A stretch of 64,000 nucleotides of DNA from Janthinobacterium sp. PAMC25594 (lineage in GTDB: Bacteria; Pseudomonadota; Gammaproteobacteria; Burkholderiales; Burkholderiaceae_D): NCBI RefSeq assembly GCF_019443505.1, contig NZ_CP080377.1:3534001-3598000 (forward strand), written 5' to 3'. The position numbers were made by a program, and so were the translations under genes. Positions 25,010-34,192 of this stretch are shown here, piece after piece (within the stretch, counting starts at the first letter, position 1; every line of letters starts with the position of its first letter). The notes beneath the pieces are model-generated. The model saw only the letters and a list, made by a program, of their open reading frames with translations. It was not told the origin of the DNA and did no database searches.

Positions 25010-26575
25010 TCACCCCCGTTCCAGCACGCCGCCGCAATCGGCCGGTTGCGCCATGTGCGTGCTGAGCCAGTCGAAGACGCGCCCGGCCTTGTCAGCGATG
25101 CCGGCGTCAAAACCACGCTGCGCCAGCAGGGCGATGCCGTTGGTGGCCTGCAGCACGCCGGGCGCCAGCCGCAGCGCGCCCCCGTCATCGCGGCGCACGC
25201 ACCACGGCGCCAGGCAGTCTTCCAGCAGCGGCCCCAGCACCAGGTTGTGCGACGAGACGATCACCAGGTGGCGCGCGGCCAGGGAGTGCAGCACGGCGGC
25301 CGCGGCCGCCACCGATTCGAGGTGGTTGGTGCCGCGAAAAATCTCGTCGATCAGGAACAGCGCTGGCGCCCCCGCTTCGGCCAGCGCCAGCAACTCGCGC
25401 GCGCGCCGCAATTCGGCGATATAGAGACTTTCGCCGCCATCGAGCGAGTCCTCGTTCTGCATGCTCGAATACACGGCCAGGCGCGGCACATCGGCGCTGT
25501 GGGCATGACAAAAGCCAAAGGCCCGCGCGCAGACCAGGTTCAAGCCTATGCAACGCAGCAGGGTACTCTTGCCGATACCGTTCTGGCCGGAGATGAAGCC
25601 TCCCTTGCCCTTCACGGAGAACGACAGGGGCGCGGCGTCCTCCAGCAAGGGATGCAGCATGCCCTGCAAGGCCAGCGCGCGCGGCGCTGCGGCGCCCGCC
25701 CAGCAAAATACGGGCGCCGCACGCAGGTGCCGCGCCAGCGCCAGGTCCGCCTCCAGCCGGGCCACCTGGACAAAGCTATCGCGCAGGAAGGGCAGCTGCT
25801 GCGCCACCAGCTGGCGCGTGCGGAAATAGCGCTTGACGTTTTTCAGCAAGAGCCAGTCGCCATATTCAACCAGTACCGTATCGATGAAAGGCACGTAATG
25901 CAGCAGCGAGCGCTCGATGGCGCGCGTCAGCTTTGCCGTCTGCGCGCCGCCGGCAGCCAATGGCACGGCCGCCGGTACATCGAGCCGTGCCAGCGCGGCA
26001 CGGGTTTGCAGCAGATGGCGCAGAGTATCGAGCGTGCGTTCCCATACCTTGGCGCTTTCGTAAAAACGCACCTGTATGCTCATTAGCGCGACACAGGCGG
26101 CCAGCACGCCAAACAGCGCAGGCCAACCCACCAGCCAGGTGGCGGCGATGGATAGCAACAAGGCCAGCGGCACCAGCCATAGCCAGGCGCGCCACCATGG
26201 CGCCGGCGCCAGCGCCGCACCGAACAGGGTCTCGCTCACTTCCGTATCGGCCCGGCGCAAGGGCAGGCAGGCGCGCTGCACGCTGGCCGCCTGGGCCGGT
26301 TCCTCCAGCAATCGCCGGACGCGCGCGATGGAGGCAGGATCGGCATGACCACCGCTCAGGCGCCGGTGTAGCTCCTGCTGGCCAAAGATGCTGGTCTCGC
26401 GCGCCAGCTGCGCCGCATACTGATCCAGCAGCAGCTCGTCCCAGGTCTGGCCATCGAGCGCTGGCGCCTCGCCCGTCAGCAGCTGCAACATCGCCACGTC
26501 GCTGCGCGCGAAAGGATAATCAAGCGCCGGCGCGAAGGGGCTGACATGAAAAAATTGCTGGAGGAATGGATGCAT
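25010..26575 (-). CDS. Membrane-anchored MutS-like ATPase
   Basis: 521 aa. Two adjacent hydrophobic segments (residues 131-167) anchor it. The C-terminal part is a MutS-type ABC ATPase: Walker A SGQNGIGKSTLL (329-340), a signature-like region SMQNEDSLDGGESLYIAEL, Walker B ALFLIDEIFRGTNHLES, and a D/H-loop VIVSSHNLV. The mismatch-recognition domain of true MutS is absent, so a role in mismatch repair is unlikely. Proteins of this architecture are known mainly as uncharacterised MutS-related proteins. The start MHPFLQQFFHV is chosen by family appearance; the SD is weak. It stands divergently from the sigma54 operon with about 160 nt between that include the GGACA array. Confidence 0.75.
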   Translation of the reverse strand: MHPFLQQFFHVSPFAPALDYPFARSDVAMLQLLTGEAPALDGQTWDELLLDQYAAQLARETSIFGQQELHRRLSGGHADPASIARVRRLLEEPAQAASVQRACLPLRRADTEVSETLFGAALAPAPWWRAWLWLVPLALLLSIAATWLVGWPALFGVLAACVALMSIQVRFYESAKVWERTLDTLRHLLQTRAALARLDVPAAVPLAAGGAQTAKLTRAIERSLLHYVPFIDTVLVEYGDWLLLKNVKRYFRTRQLVAQQLPFLRDSFVQVARLEADLALARHLRAAPVFCWAGAAAPRALALQGMLHPLLEDAAPLSFSVKGKGGFISGQNGIGKSTLLRCIGLNLVCARAFGFCHAHSADVPRLAVYSSMQNEDSLDGGESLYIAELRRARELLALAEAGAPALFLIDEIFRGTNHLESVAAAAAVLHSLAARHLVIVSSHNLVLGPLLEDCLAPWCVRRDDGGALRLAPGVLQATNGIALLAQRGFDAGIADKAGRVFDWLSTHMAQPADCGGVLERG

Positions 26576-26657
26576 GGCGCCGGTAGAGGAGTCAATGAAG
26601 GGAACGCTACAGCAGATGCAGACGATTGCCAATTTATCAAGCGCCGCCTGCGCGAAC

Positions 26658-26697
26658 GGACATGCTGGACAGCGCGGACACGGCGGACAGCCGGACA
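26658..26697 (+). repeat. Phased GGACA repeat array (candidate enhancer)
   Basis: GGACA occurs five times, starting at 26658, 26667, 26676, 26685 and 26693: a 9-bp period, with 8 bp for the last step. The array ends about 40 bp before the -24 element of the sigma54 promoter, a position typical of enhancer sites bound by NtrC-family activators. It could bind the regulator encoded at 31425-32777. Inference from position and periodicity. Confidence 0.55.
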
Positions 26698-26735
26698 CCA
26701 AAAAAAATCTCCATTCAAATCAACGACTTAATAAC

Positions 26736-26751
26736 TGGCACGGATCGTGCA
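26736..26751 (+). promoter_or_regulatory. sigma54 (-24/-12) promoter of the HlyD-ABC operon
   Basis: TGGCAC-GGATC-GTGCA matches the RpoN consensus TGGCAC-N5-TTGCW with one mismatch in the fixed bases. GG (26737-26738) and GC (26749-26750) are separated by exactly 10 nt. The predicted start is near 26762, 21 nt before the adaptor ATG. The same operon encodes an NtrC-family activator, which supports the call. Confidence 0.8.
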
Positions 26752-26782
26752 TTGGGAAAGGCATTCTCCACGAGACCCGACC

Positions 26783-28051
26783 ATGATCCGCGATACCTCT
26801 TCCCAAGACGCCGTGTTGTCCGCCCCACCGGGCCAGCGCCACAAGCAACGTGCCCTGCTGCTGGCCGGCGTCGTCATCGTCATCGGCGCCGCCATCGCTG
26901 CCGTTGCCGGCTGGCGCAACAGCGAGCATTCCGTCAACAGCAGCCGCCTGCGCATCGCCGACGTCACGCGCGGCACCCTGATCCGCGACGCGGCCGTGAA
27001 TGGCCGGGTGGTGGCCGCCATCAGTCCCACCCTGTATTCGACAACGGTAGCGACCGTGACATTGAAGGCCAAGGCCGGTGACACGGTAAAAAAAGGCGAC
27101 ATCCTGGCCGTGTTGGAATCGCCGGACCTCTCCGACGCGCTGAAACGGGAGCAGTCGAGCGTGCAGCAACTGGAAGCGGAAGTGGCGCGCCAGCAGATCC
27201 TGGCCAAGAAACAGAAACTGCTGGCGCGCCGTGAAGCCGATACGGCCGAAATCGAACGCCTGTCCGCACAGCGTACCCTGGAACGCTACGAAAGCGTGGC
27301 GCAAGTGGGCATCATCGCCAAGATCGATTACCAGAAGGCCAAGGATGCCTTGAATTCTGCCGACATCCGCAGCAAGCACGCTTCGCAGGCAGCAGGCCTG
27401 GAAAGCGAGGACGTGACCCTGGCCTTGAAAACCAAGGCGAATGAGCTGGAACGCCAGCGCCTGAGCCGTGACAACGCCCAGCGCCGCGTCGACGAACTGA
27501 CCGTGCGCGCACCGGTGAATGGCTTCATCGGCACCCTGTCGGTGGCCAACCGCAGCGTGGTGCAAGCCAATACGGCGCTGATGACCCTGGTCGACCTGTC
27601 GCAGCTGGAAGTCGAGCTGGAAGTGCCGGAAACCTATGTGGCCGATATCGGCCTGGGCATGCGCGCGGAAATCGAAACGGGTGCCATCAAGGCGACAGGG
27701 AAACTGTCGGCGCTGTCGCCGGAAGTAGTGAAAAACCAGGTGCTGGCACGCGTGCGCTTCAATGGTGAACAACCGGCAGGGCTACGACAAAACCAGCGCA
27801 TCACGGCGCGCCTGCTGATCGACGAAAAGCCGAATGTGCTGATGCTGGCGCGCGGCCCCTTCGTCGAGGCAGAAGGCGGCCGTTTCGCCTATGTGGTGCG
27901 CGACGGCGTGGCCATCCGCACCCCCATCAAGATGGGCGCTACCAGTGTCTCGGCCGTGGAAATTCTCGATGGCCTGAAGCTGGGCGACAAGGTCGTCGTC
28001 GCCGGCACGGAATCGTTTGAAAACGCTGCCCGCATCTCCATCAATCAATAA
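26783..28051 (+). CDS. HlyD/RND-type periplasmic adaptor subunit
   Basis: 422 aa membrane-fusion protein. Cytoplasmic N-terminus, one TM at about residues 25-44 (ALLLAGVVIVIGAAIAAVAG), a split lipoyl domain (VATVTLKAKAGDTVKKGDIL ... VRAPVNGFIGTLSVANRSVV) around a coiled-coil hairpin (about 115-225), then beta-barrel and membrane-proximal domains. It should link the inner-membrane ABC pump to the periplasm or an outer-membrane channel. The ATG at 26783 is preferred because it lies downstream of the sigma54 start. First gene of a six-gene operon. The substrate is unknown. Confidence 0.88.
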   Translation: MIRDTSSQDAVLSAPPGQRHKQRALLLAGVVIVIGAAIAAVAGWRNSEHSVNSSRLRIADVTRGTLIRDAAVNGRVVAAISPTLYSTTVATVTLKAKAGDTVKKGDILAVLESPDLSDALKREQSSVQQLEAEVARQQILAKKQKLLARREADTAEIERLSAQRTLERYESVAQVGIIAKIDYQKAKDALNSADIRSKHASQAAGLESEDVTLALKTKANELERQRLSRDNAQRRVDELTVRAPVNGFIGTLSVANRSVVQANTALMTLVDLSQLEVELEVPETYVADIGLGMRAEIETGAIKATGKLSALSPEVVKNQVLARVRFNGEQPAGLRQNQRITARLLIDEKPNVLMLARGPFVEAEGGRFAYVVRDGVAIRTPIKMGATSVSAVEILDGLKLGDKVVVAGTESFENAARISINQ

Positions 28052-28081
28052 GCTGCATCCCATCCTAGAAAGAGGCACGCC

Positions 28082-28810
28082 ATGCTGCGCATGCAAAATC
28101 TGAACAAAGTCTATCGCACCCACATGATCGAAACGCACGCGCTGCGCGGCTTCGACATCCACGTCAAGCAAGGTGAATTCGTCACCGTCACAGGCCCTTC
28201 CGGCTCCGGCAAGACGAGCTTTCTGAACATCGCTGGTCTGCTGGAAGAATTCACCGACGGCGAATACATCCTCGACGGCGTTAACGTGAAGGGCATGAAC
28301 GACAATGCCCGCTCGCGCCTGCGCAACGAAAAACTGGGCTTCATCTTCCAGGGCTTCAACCTGATTCCCGACCTGTCGCTGTTCGACAATGTCGACGTGC
28401 CGCTGCGCTATCGTGGCTTCAACAGTGCCGAGCGGCGCGAACGCATCGAGGATGCCTTGGCCAAGGTGGGCCTGGCGTCGCGCATGAAACACTATCCGGC
28501 CGAACTGTCGGGCGGCCAGCAGCAGCGCGTGGCGATCGCGCGCGCGCTGGCCGGCTCGCCCAAACTGTTGCTGGCCGATGAACCGACCGGCAACCTGGAC
28601 ACGCAGATGGCGCGCGGCGTGATGGAACTGCTGGAAGACATCAACGCGCAAGGCACCACCATCCTGATGGTCACGCACGATCCCGAACTGGCGCTGCGCA
28701 GCCAGCGCAATGTGCACATCATCGACGGCCAGGTGTCGGACCTGGCGCACAAGGGGCCATCGCTGGCCAGCCGCCAGGCCAAGGCCGGCAGCAACGCCGC
28801 CACTGTCTGA
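28082..28810 (+). CDS. ABC transporter ATP-binding protein (MacB/LolD type)
   Basis: 242 aa ATPase: Walker A GPSGSGKTS (near residue 40), Q-loop FIFQGFNLIPDLSLFDNVDV, signature LSGGQQQRVAIARALAGSP, Walker B LLLADEPTGNLD and H-loop MVTHD. The sequence belongs to the LolD/MacB/FtsE branch that works with FtsX-like permeases, two of which follow directly. An A/G-rich SD (GAAAGAGG) precedes the ATG. Confidence 0.92.
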   Translation: MLRMQNLNKVYRTHMIETHALRGFDIHVKQGEFVTVTGPSGSGKTSFLNIAGLLEEFTDGEYILDGVNVKGMNDNARSRLRNEKLGFIFQGFNLIPDLSLFDNVDVPLRYRGFNSAERRERIEDALAKVGLASRMKHYPAELSGGQQQRVAIARALAGSPKLLLADEPTGNLDTQMARGVMELLEDINAQGTTILMVTHDPELALRSQRNVHIIDGQVSDLAHKGPSLASRQAKAGSNAATV

Positions 28811-28819
28811 GGATCGCCC

Positions 28820-30130
28820 ATGTTCCAGTACTACTTTCTGCTCGGCCTGCGCAGCCTGCGCCGCAACCCAGCCCTGACGGCACTGATGGTGCTGACCCTG
28901 GCCATCGGCGTGGCCGCCAGCATCTCTACCCTGACCATCCTGCATGTCATGTCGGGCAATCCCCTGCCGCACAAGAATGGCCGCATGTTCGTGCCGCTGG
29001 TCGACAATGGCTCCCTCTCCGGCTATACGCCGGGAAATGCATCGGGCGACAAGCAGCTCAGCTACCGCGACGCCGTCAATTTCCAGAACAGCAAAATGGG
29101 TGAGCGGCGCAGCGTCATGTTCGGCGTGGGCGGTGCCATCGAGCCGCAGCGCAAGGACATCGGCGCCTTCACGTCGCAAGGTCTGGCCGCCTACCGCGAT
29201 TTCTTTCCCATGTTCGAGACGCCCTTTCTGCATGGCCAGCCATGGAGCGAGGCCGACGATGCCGCCGGTGCCGACGTCATCGTCCTGTCGCGCAAGCTGG
29301 CGGAAAAGCTGTACGGCGACAGCAATCCTGTGGGCCAGCGCATGACGCTCATGGGCTTCCAATACCAGATCACGGGCGTGCTCGACAAATGGGAGCCGGT
29401 GCCGCGCATCCATCGCATCATCGGCAGCGGCGCCTTCGGCAGCGAGGACAGTTACTTCATCCCGTTTACCAGTGCGATCCGCCACCAGACCAGCCATAAC
29501 GGCAGCATGAACTGCAGCGGCAACCGGGAGCCGGGCTACCAGGGCACGCTCGATTCGGAATGCACGTGGATGCAGTTCTGGTTCGAGATGGCCAACGACG
29601 GCCAGCGCGGCGAACTGCAAAATTACCTCGACAGCTATGCGCAGGAGCAGCGCAAGCTGGGCCGCCTGAAACGCGCTGCGCCCAACCGCTTGTTCAGCAT
29701 CGATGAATGGCTGGTGCACCTGCGCGTGGTGGGTAATGACAACAAGCTGTCGGCCTGGCTGGCCTTCGGTTTTCTGGCCCTGTGCCTGGTCAACACCATC
29801 GGCCTGCTGCTGGCCAAGTTCTCGGTACGCGCCGCCGAGGTGGGCATCCGCCGCGCACTGGGTGCCTCGCGCAGCGATATCTTCCGCCAGTTCCTCGTCG
29901 AGACCACCGTCATCGGCCTGGCCGGCGGCATGTTGGGACTGTTGCTGTCCTTCGGTGCGCTGGCACTGATCGGCATGCAGTCGAAGCAGCTGACCGTCGC
30001 CGCGCACATGGACTGGGTGATGCTGGCCATGACCTTCGTCATCTCGGTGGCCGCGGCGATCCTGGCGGGCCTGCTGCCGACCTGGCGCGCCTGCCAGGTG
30101 ACGCCGGCCATCCAGCTCAAATCCCAATGA
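28820..30130 (+). CDS. MacB/FtsX-type ABC permease, first copy
   Basis: 436 aa. TM1 is at about residues 21-42 (ALMVLTLAIGVAASISTLTI), then a periplasmic MacB_PCD domain with VIVLSRKLAEKLYGDSNPVG, then three C-terminal TMs typical of FtsX, including GVRRALG-like GIRRALGASRSDIFRQFLVE. It starts 9 nt after the ATPase gene. MacB-type systems are mechanotransmitters that expel peptides, toxins or lipids rather than flippases. Confidence 0.9.
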   Translation: MFQYYFLLGLRSLRRNPALTALMVLTLAIGVAASISTLTILHVMSGNPLPHKNGRMFVPLVDNGSLSGYTPGNASGDKQLSYRDAVNFQNSKMGERRSVMFGVGGAIEPQRKDIGAFTSQGLAAYRDFFPMFETPFLHGQPWSEADDAAGADVIVLSRKLAEKLYGDSNPVGQRMTLMGFQYQITGVLDKWEPVPRIHRIIGSGAFGSEDSYFIPFTSAIRHQTSHNGSMNCSGNREPGYQGTLDSECTWMQFWFEMANDGQRGELQNYLDSYAQEQRKLGRLKRAAPNRLFSIDEWLVHLRVVGNDNKLSAWLAFGFLALCLVNTIGLLLAKFSVRAAEVGIRRALGASRSDIFRQFLVETTVIGLAGGMLGLLLSFGALALIGMQSKQLTVAAHMDWVMLAMTFVISVAAAILAGLLPTWRACQVTPAIQLKSQ

Positions 30131-30160
30131 CAGAATCGACCGCACACGAATAGGAACACC

Positions 30161-31396
30161 ATGGAAATTCGACCCATCCTGTCTGCGCTGATGCGCAGCA
30201 AAACCGGCGCCATCCTGGTCGCCGTGCAAGTAGCCCTGAGCCTGGCCATCCTGGCCAATGCCCTGCATATCGTCAACGTGCGCCAGGAAGTGGCGGCGCG
30301 ACCCAGCGGCGTGGCGGCGGAGGGCGACGTCTTCCACCTGCTGGCGCGCAACCTGCGCCCGCTGGGTCACAACGAAGAACTCGCGCTGCAAAAGCGCCTG
30401 GCCGCGGCCGCGCGCGCCGTGCCGGGCGTCGTCTCGGTAGCGCAGGTGAGCCAGGTGCCGTTGTCGCGCAGCGGCAGCAACAGCGGCTTCGCCGCCAGCC
30501 GCAAGCAGGAAAATAGTTCCGCCATTGCCGCCGTGTATATCACGCCCGATTCGCTGATCAAGACCTGGGGGCTGAAGCTGGTGGAAGGACGTGACTTCAC
30601 GCCAGCCGAGATCGTCGAAATCGACCAGAACGTGACGGAAGAATTCCCCCCGCAAGTCATCGTCACGCGGGCAATGGCCGAGAAAATCCACCCTGGTGGC
30701 GGCAGTGCGCTGGGCATGCCCCTCTTCCTGGGCACCGGCGAAGGAGCGCAGCAATTGCAAGTCGTCGGCGTCGTCGAGCGGCTGCAGAGCCAGGGTGCGG
30801 AAGTGGGTGACAAGGGAGAGTATTCGGTGCTGTTTCCCGTACGCCTGACGGGAGACGGCGATACTCTGCTGACCATCCGTGCCGAAGCGGGCCAGCGCGA
30901 CCGCGTGATGAAGGAAGCCGAGCAGGCCATCCGCGCAGCCACGCCGGACAAGCTGATCCTGCGCCTGCGCACGCTCGATGAAGACCGCGACACGCGCTAC
31001 CGCGCCGACCACGCGATGTCGTGGATGCTGATCACGGTCTCTGCCCTGCTGCTGCTGGTGACGGCCAGCGGCATCGTCGGCATCGCCAGCCTGTGGGTGA
31101 CGCAGCGCAGGAAGCAGATCGGCGTGCGGCGCGCACTGGGCGCGCGCCGCGTCGACATCCTGCGCTATTTTTTAACGGAGAATTTCATGATCACCAGCGT
31201 GGGCGTGGCTGCCGGCGTGCTGCTGGCCCTGGCGCTGAACCAGCTGCTGGTAAGCCAGCTGGAAATGGCGCGCCTGCCCCTGCCCTACCTGCTGGGTGGC
31301 GCGGCCGTCTTCTGGCTGCTGGGCCTGGGCGCCGTGTACGGCCCGGCATGGCGCGCGGCCAGTATTTCGCCGGCCACTGCCACCCGCAGTACCTGA
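30161..31396 (+). CDS. MacB/FtsX-type ABC permease, second copy
   Basis: 411 aa with the same layout: TM1 at about 14-32 (AILVAVQVALSLAILANALH), a periplasmic domain with EEFPPQVIVTRAMAEKIHPG, and three C-terminal TMs following GVRRALGARRVDILRYFLTE. AGGAAC lies before the ATG. Distinct from its neighbour in the periplasmic part, so the pump is probably a heterodimer driven by the preceding ATPase. Confidence 0.9.
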   Translation: MEIRPILSALMRSKTGAILVAVQVALSLAILANALHIVNVRQEVAARPSGVAAEGDVFHLLARNLRPLGHNEELALQKRLAAAARAVPGVVSVAQVSQVPLSRSGSNSGFAASRKQENSSAIAAVYITPDSLIKTWGLKLVEGRDFTPAEIVEIDQNVTEEFPPQVIVTRAMAEKIHPGGGSALGMPLFLGTGEGAQQLQVVGVVERLQSQGAEVGDKGEYSVLFPVRLTGDGDTLLTIRAEAGQRDRVMKEAEQAIRAATPDKLILRLRTLDEDRDTRYRADHAMSWMLITVSALLLLVTASGIVGIASLWVTQRRKQIGVRRALGARRVDILRYFLTENFMITSVGVAAGVLLALALNQLLVSQLEMARLPLPYLLGGAAVFWLLGLGAVYGPAWRAASISPATATRST

Positions 31397-31424
31397 GCCG
31401 GCACCTGAGTGATATGCTGCGCGC

Positions 31425-32776
<1,352 letters not shown>

Positions 32777-32777
<1 letters not shown>

Positions 32778-34096
32778 TGGCCTACCGTCCCATGCGCCTC
32801 TCCCTGCTGACGCGCTGGACGGCGCTGATCGTCACCTTGCTGGTGCTGGGCATCGTCATCGCTCTGCTGCTCGCGCATTTTTTGCCAGGCCAGCCGCTGC
32901 TGGTACTGGCGGGCACCCTGCTGTGCGTGCTGCCGGTGGCCGTCATTACCATCCGCGCGCAGCTGCAATCGATGCTGTCGCTGTTTCGCGCCTTGAGCGG
33001 CACGGTCGCCAGCTACCAGGACGGCGACTTCGGCTTCAGCTTGCGCTGGCCGCAGAACGATGAACTGGCCGACCTGGTGGCGGCCCACAATGCGCTCGGC
33101 GACGTGCTGCGCAAGCAGCGCCTGGACCTGGTGCAGCGCGAACTGCTGCTCGACACCATGGTGCAAAACACGCCGGTGGCCATGCTGCTGGTGGCCGAGG
33201 GCAGCGCCATCGTCTACGCCAACCTGGCCGCGCGCCAGTTGCTGCACCACGGCCGCCGGCTCGAAGGACGCCACCTGGCCGACATCGTGCGCGAGGCGGC
33301 GCCGGCCCTGGCCGAGGCGCTGGCGCGCCGCAACGACGGCTTGTTTACCAGCGGCGAAGGGGAACAGGAAGAGGTGTATCACCTGGCGCGGCGCAGCTTC
33401 AGCCTGAACGGGCGCAAGCATGAACTGCTGCTGCTGCGCCAACTGACCCTGGAACTGCGGCGCCAGGAAGTGCAGACCTGGAAAAAGGTGATCCGCGTCA
33501 TCAGCCATGAGCTCAACAACTCGCTGGCGCCACTGGCCTCGCTGGCCCATTCCGGCGCCGAGCTGGTACGCCGCGGCCAGACGGAGCGCCTGCCGCAAAT
33601 CCTCGCCACCATCGAAGAGCGCACGCGCCACCTGGAAACCTTCATCCTCGGCTATGCGCGCTTTGCCAAGCTGCCCGCGCCGCGCCTGGCGCCATGCGAG
33701 TGGCAACCCTTCCTCGACAGCCTGGCTTCGCAAGCGGCCTTCACGCTCGACGGCCCGCCGCCCGCGCAGGCCGCCGTGTTCGATGCGGCGCAAATGCAGC
33801 AGGCACTGCTGAACCTGCTCAAGAATGCGCTGGAGTCCGGCTCCAAGCTCCAGCATATCGGCCTGCACGTCAGCCAGGCGCAAGGCCAGCTGCGCATCGA
33901 AGTGCGCGACCGGGGGCCGGGCATGAGCGGCGCCGTGCTGGAAAACGCGCTGGTGCCGTTTTATTCCACCAAACGCAGCGGAACGGGACTGGGCCTGGCC
34001 CTGACGCGCGAAATCGCCGAAGCGCATGGCGGACGCATCACCCTGGCCAACCGCGAAGGCGGTGGACTGGCGGTGACATTGATTCTTCCCTGCTGA
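32777..34096 (+). CDS. Sensor histidine kinase of the sigma54 module (NtrY/NtrB-like)
   Basis: 439 aa. Two TMs (about 14-34 and 38-58) with a very short periplasmic loop, so sensing is likely in the membrane or cytoplasm. A HAMP-like stretch follows, then a PAS-like segment (about 125-220, TPVAMLLVAEGSAIVYANLA). The phosphoacceptor is His244 in VISHELNNSLAPLASLAH, the HPK4 type. HATPase: N-box MQQALLNLLKNALESG, DRGPGMS and GTGLGLALTREIAEAHGG. The ATG shares one base with the regulator stop (TGATG). It should control the NtrC-family regulator. The short extracytoplasmic part suggests the transporter itself could feed the signal; that is inference. Confidence 0.9.
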
Positions 34097-34104
34097 ACCT
34101 GATC

Positions 34105-34192
34105 CCGGTTGCCGAACCGAAAAACGTATGCCATGCTGCTGGCCGGCCTGGGCCTGCTGGGCTTCCTGGCGCGGCGCCGCAAGCAATCTTGC
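34105..34192 (+). pseudogene. Remnant of a PEP-CTERM protein C-terminus
   Basis: Just after the kinase stop the sequence encodes PVAEPKN in one frame (34105-34125), then after a +1 shift at 34126 YAMLLAGLGLLGFLARRRK in another (34127-34183). Together these make the exosortase sorting signal: VPEP-like motif, hydrophobic helix, Arg-rich tail. No start or upstream body remains. It is the relic of a cell-surface or secreted protein gene whose 5' part was lost when the operon and this locus were joined. Confidence 0.65.

Follow-up and report, generated by a model that had tools for sequence, protein, structure and literature searches.

A probable self-activating sigma54 operon for a split MacB-like exporter with an exchangeable permease pair

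Results and Discussion

A 64,000-nucleotide stretch of the Janthinobacterium sp. PAMC25594 chromosome (NZ_CP080377.1, positions 3,534,001 to 3,598,000), referred to here as the window, was analyzed around a six-gene exporter operon. We found that the operon is very probably a self-contained, sigma54-dependent sense-and-respond unit, which would activate its own transcription and combine a split MacB-like pump, a kinase that is most likely coupled to the transporter and an exchangeable permease pair. Judged from sequence, comparison of related loci showed the promoter, an IHF-type site, a half-site cluster, the conservation of the operon and the exchange of its permeases. An earlier note on this DNA did not include the enhancer cluster, IHF-type site, kinase design or exchangeable permease cassette. 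The features are as follows.

26658..26697, + strand: candidate enhancer (UAS) with five GGACA half-sites, read from the sequence and putatively bound by the operon's regulator
26718..26730, + strand: IHF-consensus site AATCAACGACTTA, matching WATCAANNNNTTR, which we take to be the IHF consensus
26736..26751, + strand: sigma54 -24/-12 promoter TGGCACGGATCGTGCA, from sequence reading and family conservation
26783..28051, + strand: periplasmic adaptor of the HlyD/RND_mfp type (Pfam HlyD_D23, HlyD_3)
28082..28810, + strand: ABC ATPase (PF00005, 8e-29)
28820..30130, + strand: permease 1 (MacB_PCD and FtsX, Pfam), with two alleles swapped in the genus
30161..31396, + strand: permease 2 (MacB_PCD and FtsX, Pfam), with a variable periplasmic domain at residues 57-279
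31425..32777, + strand: NtrC-type response regulator with receiver, AAA+ and Fis-type HTH domains (Pfam, 14-row alignment)
32777..34096, + strand: histidine kinase with a two-helix membrane anchor, a short loop, PAS and HATPase (Pfam, 14-row alignment, model)

Organization of the operon

Pfam and NCBIfam matches identified the genes at 26783-34096 as adaptor, ATPase, permease, permease, NtrC-type regulator and kinase, and thus bore out the gene order given in the earlier note downstream of a promoter ending at 26751. No outer-membrane gene was found among the six. The adaptor scored 120.5 bits with NCBIfam TIGR01730 (cut-off 94.9), and the top NCBIfam model for the ATPase was DarD (261.1 bits, under the cut-off of 375). 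The sequence of permease 2 resembled MacB (5lil, 1.7e-14) and its fold resembled MacB/LolCDE-type permeases; the mean pLDDT of its AlphaFold2 model was 85.

The regulator matched PF00158 (4.8e-62), PF00072 (1.4e-19) and PF02954 (3.3e-10), and its residues D52, T85 and K107 were invariant in 14 aligned rows. The GAFTGA loop, which we take to be meaningful for NtrC-type enhancer-binding proteins, read GAYTGI in the window. Among 59 family rows including the window, 46 carried GAYTGA, 10 GAYTGI, and one each GAYTGV, GAYTGS and GAFTGA; all 10 GAYTGI rows belonged to the window's genus, and two more rows of that genus had V or S. The departure of the 10 GAYTGI rows from the prevailing GAYTGA counts against the self-activating reading.

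On either side of the operon, we observed a divergent neighbour (25010-26581, - strand) with a match to MutS domain V (3e-12), which could be recognised upstream of the operon in some of the family loci, and a degenerate PEP-CTERM-like tail after the kinase gene (34098-34190; TYAMLLAGLGLLGFLARRRKQ in one frame and PVAEPK in another). The tail pattern was present in one of the 59 family operons examined, namely the window.

The sigma54 promoter and its upstream sites

The -24 box TGGCAC (26736-26741) is followed by the spacer GGATC and by GTGCA (26747-26751), so that GG (26737-26738) and GC (26749-26750) are separated by exactly 10 nucleotides. This reading of the sequence confirmed the TGGCAC-N5-GTGCA promoter with exact GG-N10-GC spacing of the earlier note. 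The adaptor ATG lies at 26783, 47 nt from the promoter. The string TGGCACGGATCGTGCA has one mismatch to TGGCACNNNNNTTGCW, where the sigma54 consensus is assumed to be GG-N10-GC with TGGCAC and TTGCW-like boxes. Transcription would be expected to start near 26761-26762, with a presumed distance of about 12 nt from the -12 box to the transcript start.

The promoter string by itself was not significant, because sigma54-type strings with at most two mismatches occurred 53 times in the window against an expected 50.4 (sd 6.8), which is not above chance; the bare string was consequently dropped as evidence. A weighted score of at least 18.8, with weights that we set from the assumed consensus, was reached by six strings in the window, including the promoter at 26736, and only 26736-26751 fell outside ATG-started reading frames of at least 150 aa. 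The case for a real sigma54 site at this position, which we regard as confirmed at the sequence level, rests on comparison.

Upstream, GGACA half-sites start at 26658, 26667, 26676, 26685 and 26693, in one orientation throughout. GGACA/TGTCC half-sites averaged 4.1 per 250 nt over 60 family loci, as opposed to 0.49 in shuffles, and they are likely to form the enhancer; it counts against the self-activating reading that many relatives have inverted half-site pairs while those of the window all point the same way. The exact IHF-type sequence WATCAANNNNTTR was found in 45 of the 60 family loci and in 13 of 3000 shuffles, starting 17-19 nt before TGGCAC in 42 loci and 29-30 nt before it in three.

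Conservation of the promoter in family loci

A search of 195 family genomes detected the adaptor in 63, among them its own, with 64 occurrences in total. Of the 63 occurrences outside the window, 61 were taken (60 plus L136), and two were cut at contig starts. All six genes occurred in order in 58 of 60 family loci, the exceptions being L069, at a contig end, and L114, a paralogue lacking regulator and kinase. For the promoter set, L114 was left out and the window was added, giving 59 relatives plus the window. The search for the same promoter ahead of orthologous operons, a check put forward in the earlier note, revealed a sigma54 site just before the adaptor in 57 of these 60 loci, compared with 27 of 3000 dinucleotide shuffles. 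The three misses were L111, L112 and L113. Loss of the promoter in L111 was rejected, as inspection by eye located the site about 500 nt upstream, with an extra reading frame between it and the adaptor. In the sister genomes L112 and L113, half-sites were kept and a canonical sigma54 site was not found.

Co-occurrence of the promoter with the regulator

At 1e-40, the adaptor was found in 10 of 369 genomes of the class, its own included. The best 80 of at least 564 confirmed relatives from a scan of named genomes were used, and hosts among these 80 included Lysobacter, Rhodanobacter, Dyella, Frateuria, Microbulbifer, Pseudoalteromonas, Alteromonas and Duganella. We sorted 152 loci of the gammaproteobacterial type (151 distinct, L126 and L164 being the same stretch) by one rule: TGGCAY at most 600 nt from the adaptor, and at least one half-site 25-150 nt before TGGCAY. 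Loci that also had the -12 GC in place were called strict.

When the regulator was in reach (n = 112), 94 loci were strict, 15 had the -24 box only and three had neither; all 20 arrays with a regulator beyond the stretch were strict. The 13 loci with neither a regulator in reach nor an array comprised eight with no site and five strict ones, and the seven on contigs that were too short comprised three strict, two with the -24 box only and two with neither. The difference between 94/18 and 5/8 gave a raw Fisher p of 0.0008, which is optimistic since the genomes are related. The eight regulator-less negatives had at most one half-site within 250 nt, and the five strict loci without a regulator were mostly misassigned: the regulator of L127 lay 13.4 kb and that of L136 8.9 kb away from the adaptor, it was present by tblastn in L165, and L182 stopped at a contig end. 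In the fifth, L215 (Rudaea sp.), promoter and half-sites were found at the transporter and the regulator elsewhere in the genome. Three loci (L112, L113 and L186) had no site by the sorting rule, which counts against the self-activating reading. Absence of the regulator from Rhodanobacteraceae was considered and rejected, as it was present in all 24 genomes examined (10 + 14).

It likewise counts against this reading that L133, L134 and 13 loci of the Pseudoalteromonas/Alteromonas sort, 15 in all, lacked the -12 GC. The Pseudoalteromonas/Alteromonas loci (L161-L214) showed a highly regular inverted enhancer, GTGTCCGC-N-GCGGACAC, followed by TGTCCGCGGACA; TGGCAY was present in them and the -12 GC was replaced.

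Evidence for a dedicated regulator

The regulator gene occurs together with promoter, IHF-type site and half-site cluster, so the comparison supported sigma54 control with an activator acting on its own operon, as the earlier note had proposed. We regard a dedicated, self-activating sigma54 operon as well supported by these sequence patterns; RpoN would drive its transcription, and the operon's own regulator would bind the half-sites. It is very improbable that the operon is transcribed by sigma70 and that the promoter-like string matches by chance. That reading draws on the frequency of the string in the window, which by itself is no higher than chance, and it conflicts with the conservation of position and sequence in the family (57/60 against 27/3000 in shuffles) and with the retention of the site in distant loci.

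A real promoter could also be served mainly by another NtrC-type protein that binds the GGACA cluster, with the operon's pair controlling something else. The genome contains one rpoN and 17 matches to the sigma54-activator domain, 14 of them strong, so another activator could bind and exclusive binding by the operon's regulator is a supposition; the arrangement in L215, where the regulator is separated from the promoter and half-sites, points the same way. Half-sites and TGGCAY, however, were found together in 109 of the 112 loci with an NtrC-type regulator in reach and were missing in eight of the 13 short loci without one. In addition, the combined IHF and sigma54 pattern ATCAANNNNTT-N4-12-TGGCAY-N6-TGC occurred once in the 6.5-Mb genome (reversed control, 0). 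We therefore consider control by another activator improbable, though less so than a chance match. A looser half-site and sigma54 pattern matched the operon locus (four overlapping matches) and L217 and L218, which have a single half-site each, with one match in the reversed control; a regulon beyond the operon was rejected on this basis.

In the preferred reading, the phosphorylated NtrC-type regulator would bind the GGACA/TGTCC cluster, IHF would bend the DNA between this cluster and the promoter, and the AAA+ domain of the regulator would open the complex of RpoN and polymerase at 26736-26751. Transcription would then cover the entire operon with its regulator and kinase genes, resulting in positive feedback. 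A source of basal regulator would be needed in case the operon's sole promoter depends on the activator encoded behind it; none was found. The arrangement offers a testable enhancer motif, GGACA/TGTCC, and a regulator apparently dedicated to one promoter.

Kinase and sensing

The kinase model placed helices at residues 10-35 and 40-73 with a 4-residue linker (36-39); its pLDDT was about 80 at the helices and 66 on average, which is weak overall. Two hydrophobic helices a few residues apart were seen by eye in the 14-row alignment and in 55 N-termini (of 59), and a crude hydropathy count over the 55 kinases was not clean (two segments in 21, three in 31 and four in three). The kinase thus appears to have no periplasmic sensor domain and to be Bce-like, and because of this it most likely responds to the functional state of the transporter, by analogy with Bce modules. 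Alternatively, the PAS domain or the helices may sense a cytoplasmic or membrane signal, with no part for transporter cycling. A PAS_8 match in the cytoplasmic part (3.7e-05) is in keeping with such sensing, and we give it a substantial chance, somewhat short of even; the Bce design, in which a sensor-less kinase is encoded with an FtsX-type exporter, and the long-range gene linkage would by analogy favour coupling to the transporter.

Comparison with known systems

The pump would be a split MacB-like exporter composed of an adaptor, a separate ATPase and two different 4-helix permeases. It shares with MacAB-TolC a MacB-like periplasmic domain, an FtsX-type membrane part and a MacA-like adaptor. 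Whereas the ATPase is fused to one permease in MacAB-TolC, it has its own gene here (28082-28810) beside two different permeases; the operon also differs in lacking an outer-membrane gene and in including a regulator and a kinase. Permeases 1 and 2 matched the first and second half of the ADOP model (TIGR03434) with 169 and 204.7 bits; unlike fused ADOP, they are two genes beside an ATPase and scored far under the cut-off of 622.3. ATPase and adaptor matched DarD and DarC of the darobactin exporter DarBCDE type, both under the cut-offs (261.1 of 375 and 57 of 450).

According to the available part of PMC10314905, Bce modules (BceAB-RS) likewise encode an exporter-type ABC transporter together with a sensor-less kinase, and the transporter is expressed under its own two-component system. 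As far as that part goes, the present operon differs in its NtrC-type regulator (OmpR-type in Bce), its sigma54 output, its adaptor and its two 4-helix permeases instead of BceB. If our reading is true, the operon is a Gram-negative, sigma54-driven counterpart of the Firmicutes Bce resistance modules, with a recognition part that is both expandable and exchangeable. It is likely to sense toxic compounds that act on the envelope, through coupling to the transporter, and to remove them; these substrates are probably peptides.

The earlier note had also described RpoN control of MacB-like pumps as non-standard. This needs trimming, as a general link was already predicted in print: the available text of PMC12316311 (PLoS One, August 2025) reports, as a prediction, an enrichment of sigma54 at the COG0577 permease genes of gamma-Proteobacteria, Opitutia and Bacteroidia. 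As in the present operon, predicted sigma54 promoters lie there at genes for ABC-type antimicrobial-peptide (FtsX/COG0577) permeases; unlike here, that portion of the paper mentions neither an enhancer motif nor an IHF site, and it describes no regulator-kinase pair within the operon, no exchange of cassettes and no array of permeases. Searches of the open-licence literature gave no account of the layout of enhancer and IHF site, of the sensor-less kinase or of a permease set that can be exchanged and expanded, which is weak evidence of absence. What is new here is the kinase apparently lacking a periplasmic sensor domain and the permeases as an exchangeable cassette.

Permease exchange in the genus

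Two allele classes were distinguished in the window's genus: class 1 (the window, L055 and L056) and class 2 (L057-L066). Mean protein identity between them was 94% for the adaptor, 92% for the ATPase and 95% each for regulator and kinase, as against 71% for permease 1 and 69% for permease 2. DNA identity dropped near the end of the ATPase gene and recovered inside permease 2. With boundaries taken from the AlphaFold2 model, permease 2 was 51% identical between alleles in its periplasmic part and 90% in its membrane part; for permease 1, with boundaries set by analogy, the values were 65% and 80%. The last 17-20 codons of the ATPase were its least conserved stretch (site identity 0.30 versus a mean of 0.88) and adjoin the exchange breakpoint.

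The locus L083, from another genus, was 88 and 84% identical to class 2 in its permeases and 75 and 78% in adaptor and regulator. The permease tree (31 rows) placed L083 inside class 2 and rejected the genus as one clade (p-AU 3e-41). In the adaptor, regulator and kinase tree, L083 paired with L082, class 1 was nested within class 2, and a group of class 2 with L083 was rejected (p-AU 4e-43); both trees came from fast searches with no bootstrap, and the groups to be tested were defined once the identities had been seen. L083 thus has a class 2 permease pair of the window's genus in an otherwise L082-like operon. Faster evolution of the permeases as the sole cause would not move L083. By these sequence comparisons, the permease cassette has been swapped in the genus and the flanking genes have not. 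The permease pair, and its periplasmic domain in particular, would be the specificity part that is exchanged between strains.

Permease arrays

Twenty array loci, mostly from Rhodanobacteraceae, were chosen for a regulator beyond the stretch or in the array and are biased to large arrays. Their order was adaptor, ATPase, (permease 1, permease 2)n and regulator, with n = 3-11; the largest, with 11 pairs, was that of Rhodanobacter glycinis, and the window has one pair. The kinase followed the regulator in 19 of 20 arrays and lay beyond the fetched end in L163. One unpaired permease 2 in L189 was left out of the pair counts. Each of the 20 stretches had one strict promoter with at least two half-sites on the + strand, at its head. 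Pairs were closely spaced, with some gaps of 0.5-1.4 kb. Among smaller arrays, L216 had two pairs and L150 three.

Over 111 pairs, permease 1 identity within an array was 47% on average and 70% at most, and the nearest permease 1 was in another genome for 110 pairs. The nearest permease 1 and the nearest permease 2 came from the same pair in 66 of 111 cases, to which shared descent of neighbouring species contributes, compared with 6.4 (largest 17) when partners were redealt within arrays. The ordinal position was the same in 49. The low identity within arrays, the nearest relatives in other genomes and the 66 against 6.4 same-pair matches indicate, on sequence evidence, that the arrays are not fresh tandem copies and that permease pairs travel as units.

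We tentatively propose, at somewhat less than even probability, that one ATPase, adaptor, sensor-less kinase and sigma54 activator serve interchangeable permease pairs, each of which would act as the receptor for a different toxic compound and also as its pump. A ligand-engaged pair would trip the shared kinase and raise the whole repertoire through one promoter; pairs would be gained, lost and exchanged as units, with motor, sensor and switch fixed. If this is true, recognition evolves by cassette shuffling. The natural series of repertoires, from 1 to 11 pairs, bears on the way in which a single ATPase and a single kinase work with many permeases.

The Dyella jiangningensis array contained eight permeases, all with both domains, and a DUF885 protein between array and regulator. 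A Rhodanobacteraceae-like array was also observed in L160, a record titled Candidatus Eremiobacteraeota that is probably a mis-binned contig.
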